Of a DNA stretch of 64,000 nt, positions 1 to 12,686 are shown in pieces. A program made the position numbers and the translations under genes. The notes under the pieces are model-generated. The model was not told where the DNA came from and did no database searches. It saw only the letters and a program-made list of their open reading frames with translations. Numbering within the stretch: the stretch's first letter is position 1; each line of letters starts with the position of its first letter. The DNA is from Acidithiobacillus thiooxidans ATCC 19377. GTDB taxonomy: Bacteria; Pseudomonadota; Gammaproteobacteria; Acidithiobacillales; Acidithiobacillaceae. Where the stretch lies: contig NZ_CP045571.1 in the NCBI RefSeq assembly GCF_009662475.1, positions 556,501-620,500 on the forward strand, given 5' to 3'.

Positions 1-247
1 TGGGTTTGTCGTCTGTGGCTGCTGCCCAAGCTTTACCGATGTCGTCGATGGCGCTCCAATGCGCCAGGGTGAAATCTTGCGTCCTGAATCCCTTCCCTTT
101 TTTGACAAGAAAACGACGTATGGCTTGAATGGCGGATGTCTTCCCGCTATTGTTTGCGCCGACAAAGAGCGTAGTCTCGTCCGCTAGATCGATCCGGACG
201 GAGTAGAGCTTACGGAAATTAGCAATTTCAATATGAGAAATACGCAT
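1..247 (-). CDS. AAA/OLD-type ATPase, N-terminal part (runs off the left edge)
   Basis: The reverse strand from the ATG at 245-247 reads MRISHIEIANFRKLYSVRI and continues in frame to base 1 (82 codons). The segment GANNSGKTS is a Walker A P-loop directly after a short N-terminal strand, the layout of SMC-like and OLD-family ATPases, which in defence loci are often joined to a TOPRIM nuclease. It lies 107 bp downstream of the DUF262-HNH gene on the same strand, so it is probably the third gene of that operon. Seen: P-loop and open frame. Inferred: ATPase with a role in the restriction-like cassette. The C-terminal half, including any TOPRIM domain, is outside the window. Confidence 0.75.
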   Translation of the reverse strand, partial: MRISHIEIANFRKLYSVRIDLADETTLFVGANNSGKTSAIQAIRRFLVKKGKGFRTQDFTLAHWSAIDDIGKAWAAATDDKP

Positions 248-354
248 TCAAAAATTTCCTCTACGAAGGGAGTTGTCCATGTAGGTAATATGCACAAGAT
301 CCAGCCCCAACCATCGGGCTCGTCCCTATACGCTCAGTATGCATTTCGCCTAAC

Positions 355-1437
355 TTATCTATCGGATTTCCTGCGATTGCATTCTCGACAGAGCATTTGT
401 CCATTAACCAATTCCGTCTTGCCTCCTTGCGACCATGGTGTTACGTGGTCTGCCTCCATCTGGCCAATCTCAAAAATTTTCAGGCATGCGGCACAAGCAC
501 CGTTCTGACGTTCGTAGAGAGTACGCTTATTCCCGTCCGTAAACTCACGGATACTCAAGTATTTCTCGTTTCTTGTAAGTAGAAACTCATATATTCCTTT
601 CTTCCTTGTCACATCGTCATCTGCCATAAGACGCGCCACCGATTCCTCCAGCGTCCTCGGATCAAGATCGTCATCCTTATATTTGTTATAAAGAATTCCC
701 CAAGCGATACCCTTCATCTCCCTACGGTACTTCGTGAAAGTGGCCTTTACCCAGTTAATAACAGTTTGGAAATAAAGCCACAGTGGATTGGCGTTTTTAT
801 CATGCTGGTGTTTTGCCATATAACCATCTATGTCACCATTATTTATCCATGAGATGGCGGTTTCTAGGTAGTCTTGGCGGTTGGGCGCACCGTTCATATA
901 TTTTTCTGAGACTATCCAGGCAGCACACTGGTTCTTGGAGAAATAGCGCTTGGCATCTGCCGTCCATGAGCCTGCGTAGACCGCGTTTCGCAACTCTTGA
1001 TCTGTCAGTTTTTCACCAGCAATATTGATAATACGAAACCAGTCCAGTTTCTCACTATCAGCGCCCTGACATTGGTACACGGTTAGTTTGTAGTTGAGGA
1101 TGCTATCTCTCTCATTATGTTGAAGGTTATGGAAGTAACGATCTTTGTAGGAAAATACACCATCCACATACTGGCAGATCGAAATGGTACGCTGTTGACC
1201 GTCGATAATCTCGAAACCTTCAGGAGTTATAGCCCAGTACATCGTGTTGAGCGGAAAGTCTCTAGTGATAGTATCGATCACCGCCTCACGTTGTTTATCG
1301 TTGTAAACAAATTCTCTCTGGTAGGGCGGGCGGATATTTAGTCTGTCGCCGAAACCGACAACTCCGGCCTCCTGATTGTCCTGGTAACCTTCGACCAAAT
1401 CTCTGATCGCGATATTATGCAGTTTTATCTCCATCAT
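355..1437 (-). CDS. DUF262 and HNH endonuclease domain protein
   Basis: A 360-aa protein. Its N-terminal half carries DUF262 (ParB-like/DndB-like NTP-binding fold) signatures PPYQREFVY near residue 38 and DGQQRT near 78. The C-terminal 50 residues form an HNH nuclease: a CAAC pair, EADHVTPWSQGG with the catalytic histidine, and CRECNRRKS closing the zinc knuckle. DUF262-HNH proteins such as the GmrSD family cut modified or invading DNA in an NTP-dependent way. The gene overlaps the end of the adenine methylase gene by four bases (ATGA), so translation is coupled. The pairing suggests the nuclease arm of a restriction-modification unit, but sequence specificity cannot be read from this. Confidence 0.85.
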   Translation of the reverse strand: MMEIKLHNIAIRDLVEGYQDNQEAGVVGFGDRLNIRPPYQREFVYNDKQREAVIDTITRDFPLNTMYWAITPEGFEIIDGQQRTISICQYVDGVFSYKDRYFHNLQHNERDSILNYKLTVYQCQGADSEKLDWFRIINIAGEKLTDQELRNAVYAGSWTADAKRYFSKNQCAAWIVSEKYMNGAPNRQDYLETAISWINNGDIDGYMAKHQHDKNANPLWLYFQTVINWVKATFTKYRREMKGIAWGILYNKYKDDDLDPRTLEESVARLMADDDVTRKKGIYEFLLTRNEKYLSIREFTDGNKRTLYERQNGACAACLKIFEIGQMEADHVTPWSQGGKTELVNGQMLCRECNRRKSDR

Positions 1438-2444
1438 TTCTCCGAAGCAATATTATGGTTGCGGATGAAAAGGCGTTTGTAAACCCGCTTTCCTTTTATA
1501 ACCGCCTGCGAAATGCCGCTTTCAGGTTTCCATAGCCCAAAAGAAAAGCCTGAGCCTTCACTTTCTGTTGCACCAATTATCTTGAATTGTTCAGGGTTAT
1601 ATTTAGTGAGGAACGTGATTGGGACGCCCATTGCGCCCTCATAATCGAGAGGAATATCCTGCGTCTTTGAGACCTCTATGGCATCATAGTTGTCATAGAG
1701 AGGATAAGCTGATTCATTGCCGTCGTAACGCTTTACCAAAATCATTTCCTCATGACGCTTGTGGTGGTCGAGGTTTGTGTACCAGACCACCCCAGATACC
1801 CGGATCATACCGTCCCGATGATCGGCGTCAGAAGCAGTATCCTTATAATGTGGTGCAACAAAATGAGCCATATTTCTTTTGAAACCGTAGCCAAGCCACA
1901 TTTTGTTGTTCTTAATGAGAGGGAAAACATCTTTATAGGTAATCGCGTTTTGGTGCCCTATGATGATGAACTTTTTATTGTGGTTGGCTAACTGCGCCAC
2001 ATATTCACTGAACAACGAAAACGGGGGATTGGTGACAACAATGTCTGATCCATTGAGAATTTCTACGCATTCCTGGCTGCGAAAGTCGCCGTCACCATTG
2101 AGTGGTGTTATGCCAATGTCGTTCGGTTTCGGCATGCTGTTTGGGGCGCCGCCAGTGTATTCCAATTTGATGGCTTCTTTTGAATCGTTCTGACTGAAAA
2201 GATCCAGCCGCTGACTCTTATAGCAGGTGGTGACGAGCCTTTTTAGCCCCAAAAATTCGAAGTTCTTGGTGAAGTATTCAAAAAATGCGCTGACATACGG
2301 ATCATCGCAGTTACAGTACACAACCTTTCCCTTAAACTGGTCTCGGTAATGCCTTAGCTCCCTCTCAACATCTACTATTTGTGTATAGAACTCGTCATTC
2401 TTGTTGCGCTTGGCTTTATGCAGGCCACTATTTTCGTTTGCCAT
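1434..2444 (-). CDS. EcoRI-family DNA adenine N6-methyltransferase
   Basis: A 336-aa protein resembling the EcoRI-methylase family. VVTNPPFSLF, with the NPPF catalytic motif at about residues 139-142, is the N6-adenine methylase signature. NDEFYTQ near residue 16 and the YCNCDDPYVS segment near 43-52 are also typical of this family. It would transfer a methyl group from S-adenosylmethionine to adenine in the target site. It is the first gene of a minus-strand operon with the DUF262-HNH nuclease (4-bp overlap) and the AAA ATPase, where it would protect host DNA. The classic EcoRI nuclease is absent and its place is taken by a DUF262-HNH protein. Confidence 0.85.
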   Translation of the reverse strand: MANENSGLHKAKRNKNDEFYTQIVDVERELRHYRDQFKGKVVYCNCDDPYVSAFFEYFTKNFEFLGLKRLVTTCYKSQRLDLFSQNDSKEAIKLEYTGGAPNSMPKPNDIGITPLNGDGDFRSQECVEILNGSDIVVTNPPFSLFSEYVAQLANHNKKFIIIGHQNAITYKDVFPLIKNNKMWLGYGFKRNMAHFVAPHYKDTASDADHRDGMIRVSGVVWYTNLDHHKRHEEMILVKRYDGNESAYPLYDNYDAIEVSKTQDIPLDYEGAMGVPITFLTKYNPEQFKIIGATESEGSGFSFGLWKPESGISQAVIKGKRVYKRLFIRNHNIASEK

Positions 2445-3501: not shown

Positions 3502-4398
3502 CTACACCGTGGGCAATTTTAGCTGTGTGGCATGAGTTTTGTGTTCCAGAACTTTTAATACGGCATAGTCCGTTTTTACCCCGGCATCTGTTTGCCATTG
3601 CGTGACCCGGACGCGGCAAATCAAAACGTCAGATTTTGCAAAAGATTCCTTATCGGTGTTCACTCGAAGGAGGAAGTCTGTATCCTCAATAGACACAAAT
3701 ACGGTCGCCTGCCCATCATACAGTCTCCACTTGTTGCCATCTTGAAACGCCAGATTGGCGATAGAGAAAGCCTGTGTTCGCTCTTCAGAGAACAAAATCT
3801 CATCCGTGGCTGGTGGGGTAACAAAGTATCCACGCTCCTTTTTGCTAACAGTGACATCGACAGAATCATCCCGGCCCAACGCTATAGTCTCAATGCCATC
3901 ACAGTTCAGGGGGTCCAACGCTTTTTCGAGCTTTTCCCGAAATTCGCGGTGCTGAAGCAAAATAAGAGTATATTCTTCGATTTCAAGCTGATCCTCATCT
4001 TCCGTGATGAGAATTCGTTTGTTCCCGTGAATATCTATCCTGTGAATTTTTCGTCCGCGCAACCATTTCAGAGCAGCGATGACGCCACCGCCAAAAGCCC
4101 CCAACCCCAGGAGTACCGCTGTCGCATTGGCCAGTCCTTGCCCGTCCTTACCAGCAAACCAGTTTATCGTTGACTGGAGCACGCAGGATGCCAAAGTAAG
4201 GTCTACACCAAAACTGCCGGTTTTGAACGACGCCTTGACGTTTACCACCATTTTGCTCTTCGGGCCAAACAGTGCCTGACTGGCAGCATCACAAGCGTCT
4301 GCCAGAGAGAGCAGCGCGGGAGCCAGATCCCGCACATCCATTTCGTGCGTATCCAGGGCTGGACCATCGTAGGTAATCCGAAAATGTTCAGTGCTCAT
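3502..4398 (-). CDS. Conserved hypothetical protein with one membrane segment
   Basis: A 298-aa protein starting MSTEHFRITYDGPALDTHEM. One hydrophobic stretch around residues 90-112 (ATAVLLGLGAFGGGVIAALK) could span the membrane and is followed by the basic RGRKIHRID, so the remaining 185 residues would be cytoplasmic. The rest is mixed alpha/beta with no catalytic motif recognised. It stands alone, convergent with nothing and about 25 bp from the DinJ remnant. The N-terminal wording resembles conserved proteins found in phages and integrative elements, but no function is known to me. Confidence 0.65.
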   Translation of the reverse strand: MSTEHFRITYDGPALDTHEMDVRDLAPALLSLADACDAASQALFGPKSKMVVNVKASFKTGSFGVDLTLASCVLQSTINWFAGKDGQGLANATAVLLGLGAFGGGVIAALKWLRGRKIHRIDIHGNKRILITEDEDQLEIEEYTLILLQHREFREKLEKALDPLNCDGIETIALGRDDSVDVTVSKKERGYFVTPPATDEILFSEERTQAFSIANLAFQDGNKWRLYDGQATVFVSIEDTDFLLRVNTDKESFAKSDVLICRVRVTQWQTDAGVKTDYAVLKVLEHKTHATQLKLPTV

Positions 4399-5756: not shown

Positions 5757-5853
5757 TGGGATGGTCTTGCCGGGCAGGCAACCAAAGGGACACCTACTGG
5801 ATGCGCTCGCGGATTTTCTGCCTGATAGACAAGCGACATGGCAGATTCTATTA

Positions 5854-5874
5854 TGTGTATAGAAACCCTACACA
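5854..5874. promoter_or_regulatory. Inverted-repeat operator of the AbiE module
   Basis: TGTGTA (5854-5859) and TACACA (5869-5874) form a perfect inverted repeat with a nine-base spacer, ending 21 bp before the AbiEi start. AbiEi antitoxins are known to bind inverted repeats in their own promoter, so this is a good candidate for the autoregulation site. Confidence 0.55.
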
Positions 5875-5894
5875 ACTGTCTGGTTCGCGCGCAC

Positions 5895-6437
5895 ATGAAA
5901 CGACTGGATCTGCTGAATCGCCTATCCGCCCTGGAACAGAAGGGGCTTGTCGTCTATTCAAGACGAGACCTGGAGAAGATTTTTCCGGAAGAGGATGAGA
6001 AAGCGCTGGAGAAGAGCTTGCAGCGCATGTGCCAGGACAACCTTCTGGTTCGCGCCGCTCGCGGCATCTACCTTTTTGGTCCAGCTGTGCCGCGTCACCG
6101 GGGCTGGCTGATCGAGCGGATCGCGCAGGCCCTGCGCCCGGGAGATTTCAATTACGTTTCTCTGGAAAGTATTCTCTCGGAATATGGTGTGATCTCACAG
6201 ATTCCTGTGGATCGCTTGACGGTAATGACCACAGGCGCGAAAGGGCTCCACAAGACCCCCTTTGGGGCTATTGAATTCACGCACACCAAGCGCACTATTC
6301 CGGATCTTCTGGAAAGAACATTAGTCGTCAAGGGGCGTCCATTGCGTATTGCCAGAAAGCAGGCTGCCATCCAGGATCTCCATCGTGTAGGACGGAACAT
6401 AGACTTGATTGATCGGGACGAGGTGGATGATGAATAA
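5895..6437 (+). CDS. abiEi: AbiEi-type antitoxin
   Basis: A 180-aa protein with an N-terminal winged helix (LLNRLSALEQKGLVVYSRRD) and the AbiEi C-terminal domain (GDFNYVSLESILSEYGVISQ, then MTTGAKGLHKTPFGAIEFTH). It is the cognate antitoxin and repressor of a type IV toxin-antitoxin and phage-exclusion module. The ATG at 5895 fits the domain start; an upstream ATG at 5838 would place the inverted-repeat operator inside the gene. It overlaps the AbiEii start region by eight bases. Confidence 0.85.
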   Translation: MKRLDLLNRLSALEQKGLVVYSRRDLEKIFPEEDEKALEKSLQRMCQDNLLVRAARGIYLFGPAVPRHRGWLIERIAQALRPGDFNYVSLESILSEYGVISQIPVDRLTVMTTGAKGLHKTPFGAIEFTHTKRTIPDLLERTLVVKGRPLRIARKQAAIQDLHRVGRNIDLIDRDEVDDE

Positions 6438-7398
6438 AGAAGATTTTGCGCAATATGTAGATGCGGCCATGCGGGGTGACGGGCTGGGTTTTTTGCGTCC
6501 CGTGGTGGAGAAGGAACTGCTGCACTATGAGATTTTTAGCGCATTGGACGAAGAGGGGCTGTTAAAGGATATGGTGTTTCAGGGGGGAACCTCTCTGCGT
6601 CTATGTTATGGTTCTGAGCGATTCAGTGAAGACCTTGACTTTGCGGGTGGAAAGAATTTTTCCGCCCGGAGTATGGCTGCCGTCAAAGGCTGCATTGTCG
6701 GGAAGATTGGCAAGCGCTTTGACCTGGATATCACAGTCCGGGAGCCCAGGGATGCTCCATTTGATGGGACAGTGCGGGTAGATAAATGGATGGTCACGAT
6801 CCAGACCAGTCCGGATCGTCCGGACGTGCCACGGCAAAAGATCAAACTGGAAATCGCCAACGTACCGGCCTATTCCAGGGATATTCTTCCATTGCGGATT
6901 AACTATTCCGTTCTGGAGGGGCGTAGTCAACCTTTGGTGGCGGTCGAGTCCAGGGATGAGATTCTGGCGGACAAGCTGATTGCGCTTCCTGCTTCCATTT
7001 CCAGAATGATTGGCCAGGAGATGGAGTTTACCCCATCGCGGATCAGGCATCGGGATATTTGGGATATCGCGTGGTTATCTGGTCAGGGAGCGCAGTTGGA
7101 TACCCAACTGGTCAGAAAGAAAGTCTCGGATTATGGATTGGATGAATTCCCCCGGTTTTTGGATCGCGCCATTGCTGCGATTCCCGTGATTGCTGGTGGA
7201 GAGGGGTTTCGTGCGCAGATGGCGCGATTCCTGCCGCAAACACAACATGACAGGGTGTTTGGCAAGGAGGGGTATGAGAAATATTTCGAGAATACGGTCA
7301 GCGGATTGCTATCCAGTCTGCGGAAGGATCTGGAATTTGATCTCAAAAAAGTCCAGCAGGTGCTGCCAGGGAAGAAAAAACGTGGGCCGGAGTTATAA
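6430..7398 (+). CDS. abiEii: AbiEii nucleotidyltransferase toxin
   Basis: A 322-aa protein of the AbiEii/AbiGii family. FQGGTSLRLCYG followed by FSEDLDF (about residues 50-71) is the nucleotidyltransferase core with the metal-binding aspartates. ESRDEILADKLIAL near 178-191 is the second conserved block. AbiEii homologues such as MenT modify tRNA acceptor ends. Of two in-frame ATGs, 6430 has the better spacing to GAGG at 6419-6422. All motifs are intact, so the module is probably functional, unlike the two decayed toxin genes to its left. Confidence 0.88.
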   Translation: MNKEDFAQYVDAAMRGDGLGFLRPVVEKELLHYEIFSALDEEGLLKDMVFQGGTSLRLCYGSERFSEDLDFAGGKNFSARSMAAVKGCIVGKIGKRFDLDITVREPRDAPFDGTVRVDKWMVTIQTSPDRPDVPRQKIKLEIANVPAYSRDILPLRINYSVLEGRSQPLVAVESRDEILADKLIALPASISRMIGQEMEFTPSRIRHRDIWDIAWLSGQGAQLDTQLVRKKVSDYGLDEFPRFLDRAIAAIPVIAGGEGFRAQMARFLPQTQHDRVFGKEGYEKYFENTVSGLLSSLRKDLEFDLKKVQQVLPGKKKRGPEL

Positions 7399-7470
7399 GG
7401 CATCCTGATTTTAAAGCACAGCAGAGCAACTGCGTCTCTATGCCGGGCAGGGCGCTGCTCGGCCCGATAA

Positions 7471-7535
7471 AGCTATACCACGATCGCCCGATCTATACCC
7501 TCCAGTCGAAGATTAACTGCGCTGGAGAGTATACG
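7471..7535 (+). promoter_or_regulatory. GATCTATACC leader element, copy B
   Basis: GATCTATACC at 7490-7499; a second CTATACC at 7473-7479, exactly 20 bp upstream. The inverted repeat is the most extended of the set: TATAC (7494-7498), one base, CTCCAG (7500-7505), a 16-base loop, CTGGAG (7522-7527), one base, GTATA (7529-7533). GGAG is the ribosome-binding site for the ATG at 7536. Confidence 0.8.
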
Positions 7536-10500
7536 ATGCCCGTCCCCGCCCCATCCCCTTCAGGGAACAACACCGATAGGAAAGATCCCCGTCTTGAGCT
7601 TGCCGACCGACTGATTGAACAGATCGGGGCAGGAACTGCCTCCTGGCAAAGGCCCTGGGAAGCCGGCGATGTGTTGGCCCCGGTCAATGCAGTCACAGGC
7701 AAGCCTTACAGCGGGGTGAACTACCAAAATCTCATGATGTTCTCTCCGGACCCGTCCGATCCACGTTGGTGTACCTACAAGCAGGCCCAGGAGCAGGGCT
7801 GGCAGGTGCGCAAGGGTGAGCATGGGATTCCCATCGAAAAGTGGTCGCGTTACGAGCACAAGCGCACCGATGAGGAAATAGAGAGGCTTTGGGCGCAGGG
7901 CGCCCAGAACATCGAGCCCGTGGAGGAACGGCTTGGTGTCCGTTACTACACGGTGTTTCACGCATCACAGATAGACGGCATTCCCCCGCTGGAGCGGTCC
8001 CCGCGTCTGGAGATCGAGGGGAAACCCGATGATCGGTTGCCGAAGCTGGCCGAGCGCCTGGGCGTGGAATTGCGGTACGGCGGCGGCCGGGCGTTTTATC
8101 GTCCGTCGGAGGACCGGGTGCAGATGCCTCCCGTGGAATCTTTCGAGCAGGCTGTGGGGCATGACACCACCCTCCTGCACGAGCTGTCCCATGCCACAGG
8201 TCATGAGAGACGACTGAACCGCGATCTGAAAAACTCCTTCGGCAGTGAGAAGTACGCCATCGAGGAGTTGCGGGCGGAGATGTCCGCGGCCATGACCGCA
8301 GCGAGTTTGGGGATTGGCTTTGATCCTGCATCCCAGGACCTGGAAGAGGGGCGCGAGATGGGTAATTCAGCCGCCTATCTTGCCTCATGGCTCAAAGCCC
8401 TGCCGGAAAAAGAGCGCAAGCAGATCCTGATGCAGACCATCAAGGATGCCCAGGGGATCAGCGACTATCTGATCGAACGGACGCCGGAATTGCTGGTGGA
8501 GCAGGAGCGACCAACCGTCTCCCGTGGCGATTACGTCCGGTACAGGAATGAGATTGGGCAAGAGGTTGAGGGCGTGGTGCTTGACGCCGCCCAGCCCGGC
8601 GAAGCAACGCGACTGAGGCGCATCTACCGGTGGCCCAACGGCACCCCCGGCCTGGACGGGGCGGACGACATCGCGCCCACGGTACTGCCTAACGACCTGG
8701 TGGAACACATCCCGGGCGCTGTCACCCCCGGTCCGGATCTGGACGCCATCGATCCGCAGACCGATGCGTACCAACGCACCATAGGCATGGACGATTCGCG
8801 CGATCGGGCGGGCCTCGCCGTGCTCATGGCGGTCGAAACCGCGCGTGGGCAGCCGGAGCGGGCGGCGGCCCTGCAGGCGGCGGCCTTGCGGGCGGCAGCC
8901 TTGCCGGAACGCGCCCTGGACCCGGAGCTGATTGCGTTTCTTGAAAACCGCACCCGCATCCGGCAAGGCGAACACCCGAATTTTGCCGGACTGAGCGATC
9001 CCGTCGCCAATGCCGAAGCCTTCGTTGAGCGGCAAGGCCGTACCGATCCCCAGCGTTCCGCGCAATGGGCCAGAGCGCTACAGGAAAGCCCGGTGGCTTA
9101 CGGCGAGGCTGTGGGCCTCAGTCCGGCCACGGTGGGTCTCGTCGCGTCTCAACTGAACCAAGGCGCTCGGCGCATGGAACGACCCCAGGTCGGCGATTTC
9201 GTGCGTTTTGAACCGCATGAACCGGGCGTGACATCCAGTCCCTTCTCAGGACGGATCATCGCGGCCTTGGATACCTCTGGCGGCGATATCCGCTATCACC
9301 TGCGGGCGGAGACGGGGCCAGATCAGGGTATTGAGGCACGGGTATATGGCCGGGACGGACAGTTCTGCGAGATCGCTCTGGATCAGGCCGTGGGATTCGA
9401 CCGGGCTCTCGCTCCAGAGGCAGAGAAAGCCCCCCAGATTCAGGTCGGAGACTTCGTGATAACCCGGAGAAATCAATTCGGGGCAGACTGGGATACTCCC
9501 TCCATCGTTACCCGCATCGATGACTCCGAAGTCCGGTTGCAGGACCTCTACCGCTCTGGCCAGGAATGGGAAGTCGCCCCAGCCAGGCGAATGATGTCTC
9601 GTGAAGACTTCGATACGGCTCTCAGTCATCAGGTTAGTGGCGTGGTGCCGCCCGAGATCGCATCAGAAAAGCTCGATTTCGCCGCCAGCCGGGACCGATT
9701 CGTCGGTGTGGTCCGGGCTTTTGATGCCGAACACAGTCTCATGTACGGCAAGGCACCGGAACCTTTGACGAAGGTCCCCGACGATGTGCGGCCATTCCTT
9801 GGAGGCCAACAGGCTACGGTGACAGATCAGTTGCTCCGCAGCAGCGAAGAAAAAGGCTTTTTCTCGGACAAGATGCAGGAGTTACAGGAGATTATCCGGC
9901 AGATGCCGGCGACCTATGAGACTGACGGCGTGCCGGACAGCGAGCGCCCAGTATCCCTGCGCTATTTTGGTCCCAATGGTGCCCAGTGGTTCATCCTTGA
10001 GAAGGATCGCGGAGATCCGGCCAATGAGGGGAACGGCTTCCCGAACCAGATGCAAGCTTTTGGTCTGGCGGACTTAGGTATGGGCCATCCCGAAGTGGGC
10101 TACATCAGTATTCCGGAGATCACCCGTGCCGGGGCGGAACTCGATTATCACTTTGCGCCCCGGACCCTTTTGGAGGTGAAGCTGGAGCACTACCCAGACC
10201 TGCTTCCGCCAGAGCATCGCCCAGTGGATCCGCGCAAGGAACAGGCACTTCAGGAGTACCAGGCGTTTTACGCCCAGTTGCCACAGCGGGAAGAGAAACT
10301 GGTGACGGCGGTCCGCGAGCGCTCCGAGCGTCTGGCTCCGGCGGATTTTCGGGGCTTCTCCGACATGATGCGGGATTTCCGCACAGGCGTGGACGATACC
10401 TTTGGGATCCTCCGGGAGGGAGAAAACCGGGGATCGTCGGCCCCGGAATTACGCCTGGCGCAGGCGTTCGCTCCGGAAGAGATCTCCGATCTGCCCGCCG

Positions 10501-12686
10501 TCCAAACCGCCCATGACCAGGCAAGACGGCTTGGCGAGCGATTTCACGATCTGGACCGGGAAATCAGGGACGCTTTCAAGGCGCGGCTCAGGGAGCATGG
10601 CAAGGCACTGCTGGAATCCGGCAGCCTGCGCGAACCCCGGGAAATCGCGCAGGCGACCTACTGGAAGCACGGGATTGAGGCAAGTCCGGACAGCCCGATG
10701 ATCGGAAAAGTGGTCGGGGCGATTCAGGACAAGGATCTCAAAACCCTGCTGGGAATGATTGGCCACAACAGCCAAAACCCGGGATCGGAAGAGGTATTTA
10801 CGCACATTACGGGAGTAAAACTGGGCAAGACCCAAAAAGAACGGGTCGCACAGTTGCTGGAGTGGGCCGGTCCTGAAAAGGCGCAGGCCCTGCGCGAAAG
10901 CAATGCGCTGGCAGAGCGGGAACGGGAAACTCGGGGCTTGCGGGATGGTATGACCAGAGCGTGGGAGGATCTGAAGGGCCTGCGCGTGGAGGTCGGTGGC
11001 CAGGTGGTGAATGGACAGGAGTATGTGACGCTGAAAGTTGCGGGCGGCCAGGAGCGCATTGCTTCTGGCAAGGCGGGTGCGGCAACCACATATCATCTGG
11101 TCAATGACCAAGGCGCATATTCCCGCGTCAAGGACGTGCGGTTCACGGCCTTTGCCAGGCGGGTTTTGGCCATGGACGCCGATGGTATGGTGCGTAACGC
11201 CCTGGAGAAGGCGGACATTGTGCAAGGGATTGCGCCGGAAGGGGTTACCCCAAAACCAGCTGCTGATCTTCAGAAAGAGGAAAAAGCACCAGAAGCTCCC
11301 GGGAAGAACGCCTACGAGCAAAAAATCGAGGCGCGTAAGGAGCGCTATCGCGCCCTTTCTGATAAGACGCGGGCGCGGGCGAAAGCGCACGTCGAGCAGG
11401 CCAGGCGCATGGCGGACGCCATCCCTTTTGGTCAGCCGATCCTGGTTGGCCACCACAGTGAAGGCCGCGACCGTCGCTATCGTGAGCGCATCCACCAGAA
11501 CTTTGGCAAAGGCTTCGACCTGCTGGAGAAGGCAGCGTATTACGAGCGCCGCGCCAAGGGCGTCAACGACTACGCCATCAGCGCGGACGATCCGGATGCC
11601 GTGAAAAAACTCAGGGAGCGGGTGGAGAATCTGAAGTCTTCCCAGGAGCGCATGAAGGCGGCGAACGCCGCCATCCGCAAACATCAGAAGGATGGCCCCG
11701 AGGCGCAGCAGGCGGCCCTGGAGCGTCTGGGTTTCCAGCCAGACCAGGCAAAAGCCATTTTGACCCCGGATGTCATGGGAACCGTGGGTTTTGCGTCGTA
11801 CTCCCTCAGCAACAATAACGCCAACATCCGGCGGCTGGAAGAGCGTATTCAGATCCTGGAAAAGGCCCAGGCCCTGAAGGACCGTGAGACACCGTATGCC
11901 TGGGGAACGGTTCGGGAGAACAGGGAGATCAACCGCATCCAGTTCCGGTTCGAGGACAAGCCTGACGAAGAGGTCCGCAATCTCATGAAGTCGAGCGGCT
12001 TTCGATGGGCGCCTTCCGAGGGCGCCTGGCAACGGCAGTGGACGGGCAATGCCGTATATGCCGCGCGGGATGTCATCAAAAAGCTGGACGCGCTGATGCC
12101 GCCTGAGCAGACGGTGGCAGCACCAGAACCGGCCCAACGGCTCGACACTGTGCCGGTTTCCCAGAGCCCTGATGTGAGCCCAGGTATTACTGTCCGCGAC
12201 CCGAGCGCCGCGCTGTCTGCGGCCATCAAGGACCGCGACGGCGACTGGTACAACCTTTCCGTGCAGGAAAACGATGGCCGTCTGGTGGGGACCTTGCAGC
12301 GGCGCGATGCGGAAACGGGTCTGGTGGAGACGATGCCAGCCGGTGTTTTTCAGCCTGACGTGAATTATGGGGTGGTGGCCAAGTTTGAGCGCGAGTCCGG
12401 GGAACTCCTGGCGGTTGGCCTTTCCCGTGGTCGGGATGGCGGTGTGGATATGAAGGTCTTTTCCCAGTCGAGGGACGCCGCAGTCTTCGCCTGGCAGCGA
12501 ATTCATGAGTACCCGGGACATCTGCGGGCCAATGAAGCGCTCCAGAAGGTCCCGGATCACCCGGAGGGCAAGGTGATTGAGCAGGCTTTGGGCGTGGACC
12601 TGAAGACGCTCAACCCGGCGCGTGTTGCTCCCAAGGCCTCAGCCCGCCGGCCGGAGCAGCAGAAGCAGCAGGGTGTGGAGATATAG
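7536..12686 (+). CDS. Large ArdC-like antirestriction/polyvalent protein (1716 aa)
   Basis: N-terminal ArdC domain (about residues 18-140, with IGAGTASWQRPWEAG and TGKPYSGVNYQNLMM) binds single-stranded DNA in relatives. A zincin metallopeptidase domain follows: HELSH at 215-219 with H223 and YAIEELRAEMSAA further on. The remaining 1300 residues are strand- and helix-rich segments of large polyvalent-protein type. The last about 150 residues (from 1563) are clearly related to the end of the next protein. Such proteins travel with conjugative DNA and protect it or process it in the recipient. The start at 7536 is set by leader copy B; an upstream start would translate through the leader. Three 15-bp GC-rich units sit in frame at 8862-8906. 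Confidence 0.8.
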   Translation: MPVPAPSPSGNNTDRKDPRLELADRLIEQIGAGTASWQRPWEAGDVLAPVNAVTGKPYSGVNYQNLMMFSPDPSDPRWCTYKQAQEQGWQVRKGEHGIPIEKWSRYEHKRTDEEIERLWAQGAQNIEPVEERLGVRYYTVFHASQIDGIPPLERSPRLEIEGKPDDRLPKLAERLGVELRYGGGRAFYRPSEDRVQMPPVESFEQAVGHDTTLLHELSHATGHERRLNRDLKNSFGSEKYAIEELRAEMSAAMTAASLGIGFDPASQDLEEGREMGNSAAYLASWLKALPEKERKQILMQTIKDAQGISDYLIERTPELLVEQERPTVSRGDYVRYRNEIGQEVEGVVLDAAQPGEATRLRRIYRWPNGTPGLDGADDIAPTVLPNDLVEHIPGAVTPGPDLDAIDPQTDAYQRTIGMDDSRDRAGLAVLMAVETARGQPERAAALQAAALRAAALPERALDPELIAFLENRTRIRQGEHPNFAGLSDPVANAEAFVERQGRTDPQRSAQWARALQESPVAYGEAVGLSPATVGLVASQLNQGARRMERPQVGDFVRFEPHEPGVTSSPFSGRIIAALDTSGGDIRYHLRAETGPDQGIEARVYGRDGQFCEIALDQAVGFDRALAPEAEKAPQIQVGDFVITRRNQFGADWDTPSIVTRIDDSEVRLQDLYRSGQEWEVAPARRMMSREDFDTALSHQVSGVVPPEIASEKLDFAASRDRFVGVVRAFDAEHSLMYGKAPEPLTKVPDDVRPFLGGQQATVTDQLLRSSEEKGFFSDKMQELQEIIRQMPATYETDGVPDSERPVSLRYFGPNGAQWFILEKDRGDPANEGNGFPNQMQAFGLADLGMGHPEVGYISIPEITRAGAELDYHFAPRTLLEVKLEHYPDLLPPEHRPVDPRKEQALQEYQAFYAQLPQREEKLVTAVRERSERLAPADFRGFSDMMRDFRTGVDDTFGILREGENRGSSAPELRLAQAFAPEEISDLPAVQTAHDQARRLGERFHDLDREIRDAFKARLREHGKALLESGSLREPREIAQATYWKHGIEASPDSPMIGKVVGAIQDKDLKTLLGMIGHNSQNPGSEEVFTHITGVKLGKTQKERVAQLLEWAGPEKAQALRESNALAERERETRGLRDGMTRAWEDLKGLRVEVGGQVVNGQEYVTLKVAGGQERIASGKAGAATTYHLVNDQGAYSRVKDVRFTAFARRVLAMDADGMVRNALEKADIVQGIAPEGVTPKPAADLQKEEKAPEAPGKNAYEQKIEARKERYRALSDKTRARAKAHVEQARRMADAIPFGQPILVGHHSEGRDRRYRERIHQNFGKGFDLLEKAAYYERRAKGVNDYAISADDPDAVKKLRERVENLKSSQERMKAANAAIRKHQKDGPEAQQAALERLGFQPDQAKAILTPDVMGTVGFASYSLSNNNANIRRLEERIQILEKAQALKDRETPYAWGTVRENREINRIQFRFEDKPDEEVRNLMKSSGFRWAPSEGAWQRQWTGNAVYAARDVIKKLDALMPPEQTVAAPEPAQRLDTVPVSQSPDVSPGITVRDPSAALSAAIKDRDGDWYNLSVQENDGRLVGTLQRRDAETGLVETMPAGVFQPDVNYGVVAKFERESGELLAVGLSRGRDGGVDMKVFSQSRDAAVFAWQRIHEYPGHLRANEALQKVPDHPEGKVIEQALGVDLKTLNPARVAPKASARRPEQQKQQGVEI
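8862..8906. repeat. Three 15-bp GC-rich tandem units inside the ArdC-like gene
   Basis: Units GCGGCGGCCCTGCAG, GCGGCGGCCTTGCGG and GCGGCAGCCTTGCCG follow each other without gap and encode AALQA-like residues. The third unit occurs exactly in trbG at 35502-35516 and, with one change, in trbL at 28433-28447, but there it is read in a different frame. Confidence 0.75.

Follow-up and report, generated by a model that had tools for sequence, protein, structure and literature searches.

The DUF262 defence systems listed in a 2023 review are GmrSD, BrxU, SspE, Menshen, Dazbog and PD-T4-2, with no others (PMC10952713). In GmrSD, BrxU and SspE, the motif DGQQR is the one that binds and hydrolyses NTP (PMC4619093, PMC8565348, PMC10952713). 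Type III restriction-modification (R-M) systems divide their labour between two proteins: Mod recognises DNA, while Res hydrolyses ATP and cuts (PMC4490356). The exchange of target recognition domains (TRDs) is known from both type I and type III systems (PMC3983042). Our literature search, which was not exhaustive, found no characterised system joining a DUF262-HNH protein to an EcoRI-family methylase. The pair that we describe here, named M for the methylase and R for the nuclease, already appears in annotation, yet is apparently uncharacterised.

We analysed a stretch of 64,000 nucleotides, hereafter the window (C1:556501-620500), from the 3.42-Mb single-contig genome of Acidithiobacillus thiooxidans ATCC 19377. 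At its left end lie the genes of M and R, both on the minus strand, whose frames overlap by 4 bp. A third frame on this strand, starting 107 bp beyond R, has a P-loop of the OLD/AAA_15 type. The first-pass annotation had described this arrangement correctly; it had also suggested that the ATPase may be the third member of a distinct NTP-dependent defence cassette. Our data favour a different picture, which taken as a whole we consider somewhat more likely than not: a two-gene unit, in which a methylase with an exchangeable TRD would direct R, sits on a conjugative element side by side with an independent, IS-disrupted Gabija system.

Coordinates of the features discussed (window positions unless a locus is named).
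Feature	Position	Strand	Evidence
M, EcoRI-family N6-adenine DNA methyltransferase, 336 aa	1434..2444	-	Pfam PF13651 EcoRI_methylase, E 7.6e-129; PADLOC MTase_II, 2e-120
M catalytic motif NPPF, residues 139-142	2019..2030	-	N139, P140 and P141 invariant in aligned relatives
Likely target recognition segment of M, residues 183-221, exchanged between loci	1782..1898	-	Identity contrast; exchange between near-identical loci
Second variable segment of M, residues 285-314	1503..1592	-	20-residue windows; divergence of L060 and L066
R, DUF262 (GmrSD_N, ParB/Srx fold) with C-terminal HNH nuclease, 360 aa	355..1437	-	Pfam, PADLOC, weak fold matches
R motif DGQQR, residues 79-83	1189..1203	-	Invariant in 51 aligned relatives
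R HNH nuclease domain, residues 315-360	358..495	-	Pfam HNH, 4.3e-12
gajA 5' fragment (Gabija), outside the R-M unit	1..247	-	PADLOC GajA, 1.3e-52
IS256-family element interrupting gajA, 1415 bp	L003:8905-10319 = G000:C1:554905-556319		Transposase NF033543, E 4.6e-93
Groups with near-identical R and unlike target segments	L034/37/38/41/45/47; L060/66; L070/80/81/89; L085/196

R as query gave 80 loci in genomes and 20 on viral contigs, and later 79 more viral-contig loci that partly overlap the first set. As expected of type II R-M, M and R are separate, linked genes: at 78 of the 80 genome loci M adjoins R on the same strand, lying upstream in 77 of the 78; the two remaining loci both end near a contig edge. 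The median overlap of the open frames at the genome loci is 7 bp. M is also present at 77 of the 79 later viral-contig loci, and the two adjacent genes are also seen on small plasmids. Within 6 kb of R, every other protein family is confined to fewer than four of the 80 genome loci. Altogether, sequence comparison identifies M and R as a conserved two-gene restriction-modification unit, and a genome scan yielded at least 578 R-related stretches.

Some Paludibacteraceae loci and L066 have an extra gene of about 300 codons between M and R; considered as a third component, it was rejected as not general. In the former (L034, L037, L038 and L047, at about 8994-9947) it is a 318-aa frame with a helix-turn-helix-like start; in L066 a different, 282-aa gene separates the pair. 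The host genome itself holds a second, degraded M-R copy (C1:1473548-1474738, L127), in which the EcoRI-family methylase is split by a frameshift and has a different target segment; behind it lies a decayed DUF262-HNH remnant with one stop.

R carries a DUF262 domain with DGQQR, as membership in the GmrSD family requires (Pfam GmrSD_N/DUF262, E 3.3e-18). Its nuclease domain is HNH (PF01844), and no DUF1524 domain was found with Pfam; residues D330, H331, N345 and N354 are invariant in 51 relatives. The same Pfam architecture sets R apart from the type III Res subunit, with its superfamily 2 helicase and endonuclease domains. The PADLOC REase_II model PDLC03418 covers R over its full length (1.2e-131). 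The structure model of R (pLDDT 87, pTM 0.63) gave weak PDB matches to BrxU, which came out on top, and to ParB-CDP, an HNH nickase and the SspE fold, so the domain assignment relies mainly on sequence. Among solved structures, the sequence search for relatives of R returned HNH domains only, and none of full length.

In M, the catalytic N139, P140 and P141 are kept in every member of the alignments with 14 and 42 relatives. The sequence search found no solved full-length relative of M, and the fold search with its model gave no PDB match at E 0.001 or better, weak ones only.

The pairing of an EcoRI-family methylase with an NTP-binding DUF262-HNH nuclease, which the first-pass annotation had singled out, is real; its supposed rarity did not hold up. 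A search that started from M gave 80 viral-contig loci: DUF262-HNH is present at 52 of them, an EcoRI nuclease at 6, and neither partner at the other 22. This sample is weighted by a query alignment with more DUF262-partnered than EcoRI-partnered members. DUF262-HNH is thus a common partner of these methylases. On a tree of the M body, the nuclease type changes 2 times, against a shuffled mean of 12.6. True EcoRI pairs on plasmids have the nuclease gene first. On one Rhodococcus plasmid (NZ_CP066854.1, L183), an EcoRI nuclease and methylase are followed, about 840 bp downstream, by a larger DUF262 protein of 596 aa.

Residues 183-221 of M are likely its TRD, judging from their conservation contrast and from their position after the NPPF motif. 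Mean pairwise identity in this segment is 0.31-0.44 for DUF262-partnered M, against 0.72-0.80 for EcoRI-partnered M; the catalytic block of DUF262-partnered M has an identity of 0.88. About a dozen segment types recur, next to singletons, and whole alternative segments reappear across distant lineages. Eight DUF262-partnered M bear the segment type of EcoRI-partnered M. The second variable segment of DUF262-partnered M shows identities of 0.11-0.47 in overlapping 20-residue windows.

The putative TRD varies almost independently of R. Identity in M residues 185-220 correlates with R identity at r = 0.10 only, compared with 0.60 for residues 10-80, 0.52 for 40-180 and 0.36 for 226-284. Residues 10-80 track R although their codons are more distant from the R gene than those of the segment, so simple linkage does not explain the difference. 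Mapped on the R tree, TRD class changes 47 times, against a mean of 54.4 and a minimum of 47 in 200 shuffles. In pairs whose R identity is at least 0.9, the median for M residues 40-180 is 0.89, while the TRD stands at 0.20-0.26.

Four independent groups of loci make the decoupling most visible: their R are about 90-99% identical and the rest of M about 89% alike, and their TRDs are unlike, down to 17% identity. In four further near-identical-R groups, drawn from distinct contigs, the segments are alike. At the DNA level, identity between L060 and L066 is 92-99% in the 5' part of M. It falls to 55-77% across the TRD segment, returns to 97% behind it, drops to 39% at the second variable segment, and from there on through R is 89-100%. 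Their R proteins are 97% identical, their TRDs 28% alike. The four decisive groups all come from metagenome-assembled or viral contigs, and assembly chimeras may be a source of such swaps; against this, other lineages carry the swapped segments too, and the reading frames are unbroken.

R itself shows little that would answer these changes. Near-identical pairs with unlike TRDs have R that are 97-99% identical and differ at 4-10 scattered residues, and none of 360 R sites tracks TRD class convincingly (largest z about 2.5). The best 20-residue window, residues 11-30, has a partial r with the TRD of 0.088 (null sd 0.024); this weak positive correlation may reflect a small TRD-matched element within R. 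M paired with true EcoRI nucleases served as control and showed no decoupling: 0 of 45 pairs, from 10 loci, had TRD identity below 0.5, at nuclease identities of 0.52-0.83, none of them reaching 0.9, unlike the decisive DUF262 pairs.

This pattern suggests that M, not R, supplies the specificity of an NTP-dependent HNH nuclease, by a logic like that of type III. M would methylate adenine at a site read by its exchangeable segment. R would be a GmrSD/BrxU-like, NTP-dependent DUF262-HNH nuclease, devoid of a matching site specificity of its own. M would then direct R to unmethylated sites, most likely inside an M-R complex, as Mod does with Res, and the pair would in this way restrict phage DNA.

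A classical type II system, in which R alone recognises the palindrome of M as R.EcoRI does, is what the PADLOC labels REase_II and MTase_II and the two adjacent genes on small plasmids would suggest. A type II nuclease should change along with the target segment, and R does not: it stays 97-99% identical beside M of unrelated TRDs, TRD class is nearly random on its tree, and no R position follows that class. We hold this explanation to be quite unlikely. It would regain ground if the variable segment were not a TRD at all, for instance a surface selected by phage-encoded inhibitors, since R could then still match the site of M. The weak PDB matches of the M model and the sequence-based TRD assignment leave some room for this. 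The segment is nonetheless strongly conserved in M with true EcoRI nucleases, is placed after the catalytic motif and recurs as whole alternative versions across distant lineages, which makes such a role very improbable.

A stronger competitor, though in our view still unlikely, is an SspE-like mode of action, in which R would read the general methylation state of DNA (6mA at any site), much as SspE senses phosphorothioate. Host methylation would switch its NTPase and nicking activity, leaving an unmethylated invader to be attacked, and R would need neither a site match nor a complex with M. This mode accounts for the decoupling equally well. The DUF262 domain of SspE senses DNA modification, and that of Dazbog was suggested to recognise methylated DNA (PMC10952713); R, too, has DGQQR and weak fold matches to BrxU and SspE. 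On the other side, R identity tracks the M body strongly (r = 0.60 for residues 10-80), and the phylogeny of M outside the segment predicts the nuclease type, for which physical contact is a better fit; shared descent could also yield this. Both direction of R by M and SspE-like sensing fit the sequence data, and both are unlike classical type II.

The ATPase frame next to R belongs elsewhere. Extension of the contig to the left, beyond the window edge, shows that the gene is gajA: it resumes past an IS256-family element and there encodes an OLD TOPRIM domain (PF20469). A UvrD-type gajB comes after it, with frames overlapping by 4 bp. The locus thus has the adjacent gene pair that defines Gabija, an OLD ATPase with TOPRIM beside a UvrD-type protein, with PADLOC scores of 1.3e-52 for the N-part of GajA, 7.2e-220 for its C-part and 7.2e-247 for GajB. 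The gajA gene is not intact here, being split by the IS256-family insertion. A perfect 9-bp target duplication, AATTCGCGA, flanks the element; once the element and one duplication are subtracted, the span measures 2325 nt, which divides into whole codons, and the gajA frame is kept. Duplication and frame together mean that everything follows from simple insertion of the element into a once intact gajA. With its P-loop part severed from the TOPRIM part, the Gabija system beside M-R is probably inactive. The genome carries about 20 copies of the element, 99-100% identical; it was recently active and probably continues to shape the chromosome. Upstream of the Gabija remnant lies a D12-class adenine methylase (PF02086; L003:3845-4735) with no obvious nuclease adjoining.

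That M, R and the ATPase form a single three-gene system is almost certainly wrong. The shared strand and the 107-bp spacing speak for it in this genome, and no other examined locus shows the linkage, in either direction of search. None of the 80 genome loci and none of the 99 viral-contig loci has a GajA or GajB relative near R. Conversely, R and M are absent from about 8 kb on each side of Gabija at all 17 GajAB loci examined outside this genome, 10 of them in genomes and 7 on plasmids, and no GajA relatives were found in viral contigs. The first-pass annotation had itself named homologues of the ATPase unlinked to the other two genes as the finding that would refute its proposal, and this is what both searches returned. 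In addition, the ATPase is an interrupted GajA with a GajB of its own, and base composition differs: G+C is 45% in the R-M genes, 51% in gajAB and 59% in the surrounding conjugative element.

The neighbourhood in the window is that of a conjugative element; relaxase-like genes and genes for type IV secretion are seen there as long frames. Window positions 3502-4398 match the PADLOC candidate defence family PDC-S42 over the full length (E 2.4e-97), with no Pfam family. An AbiEi/AbiEii pair with overlapping frames occupies 5838-7398 (E 1.3e-69 and 1.8e-103). Further on, 7440-12686 encodes a protein of 1748 aa with an ArdC N-terminal domain, a zincin-like MPTase-PolyVal domain, DUF3560 and DUF2958: a large anti-restriction-type polyprotein, carried by the restriction system's own element.

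We tentatively propose, at somewhat less than even confidence, that these pairs represent a widespread and misfiled kind of R-M: an EcoRI-family methylase with a plug-in TRD module would guide a compact, GmrSD-like, NTP-dependent HNH nuclease, following type III logic with unrelated machinery and outside types I-IV as now defined. If so, several hundred annotated 'type II' pairs would retarget by exchanging about 40 residues of M with the nuclease untouched, which would account for fast retargeting of a small mobile system. The pair would also let one test directly whether a DUF262 nuclease can adopt the specificity of a partner, and would offer a compact retargetable nuclease. For this locus, the apparent ATPase partner is to be corrected to a broken Gabija system.

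Compared with EcoRI, M belongs to the same methylase family and is 45-50% identical to M paired with EcoRI nuclease. The nuclease here is unrelated, with DUF262-HNH instead of the EcoRI fold; the order is M then R, whereas EcoRI pairs run R then M; and nuclease and target segment are uncoupled. With type III systems such as EcoP15I Mod-Res, the M-R pair would share its logic, proposed here from sequence, of a methylase with an exchangeable TRD serving a constant NTP-dependent nuclease (PMC4490356, PMC3983042). In this comparison, made by genes alone, R differs from Res in having neither a helicase nor a PD-(D/E)XK domain, and M is of the EcoRI family. SspABCD-SspE likewise pairs modification genes with a DUF262 nuclease; here the modification is methylation rather than phosphorothioation, there is one modification gene, and the nuclease domain is HNH in place of DUF1524. 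For Gabija the comparison concerns the neighbouring genes: the ATPase is a full-length match to GajA, and the helicase to GajB, except that gajA is IS256-interrupted. With the type IV enzymes GmrSD and BrxU, R shares DUF262 with the invariant DGQQR and a His-Me-finger/HNH nuclease, BrxU being the top PDB fold match; R departs from them by its HNH domain (PF01844, not DUF1524), its size of about 360 aa and its obligate place beside a methylase, and dependence on modification is not indicated.
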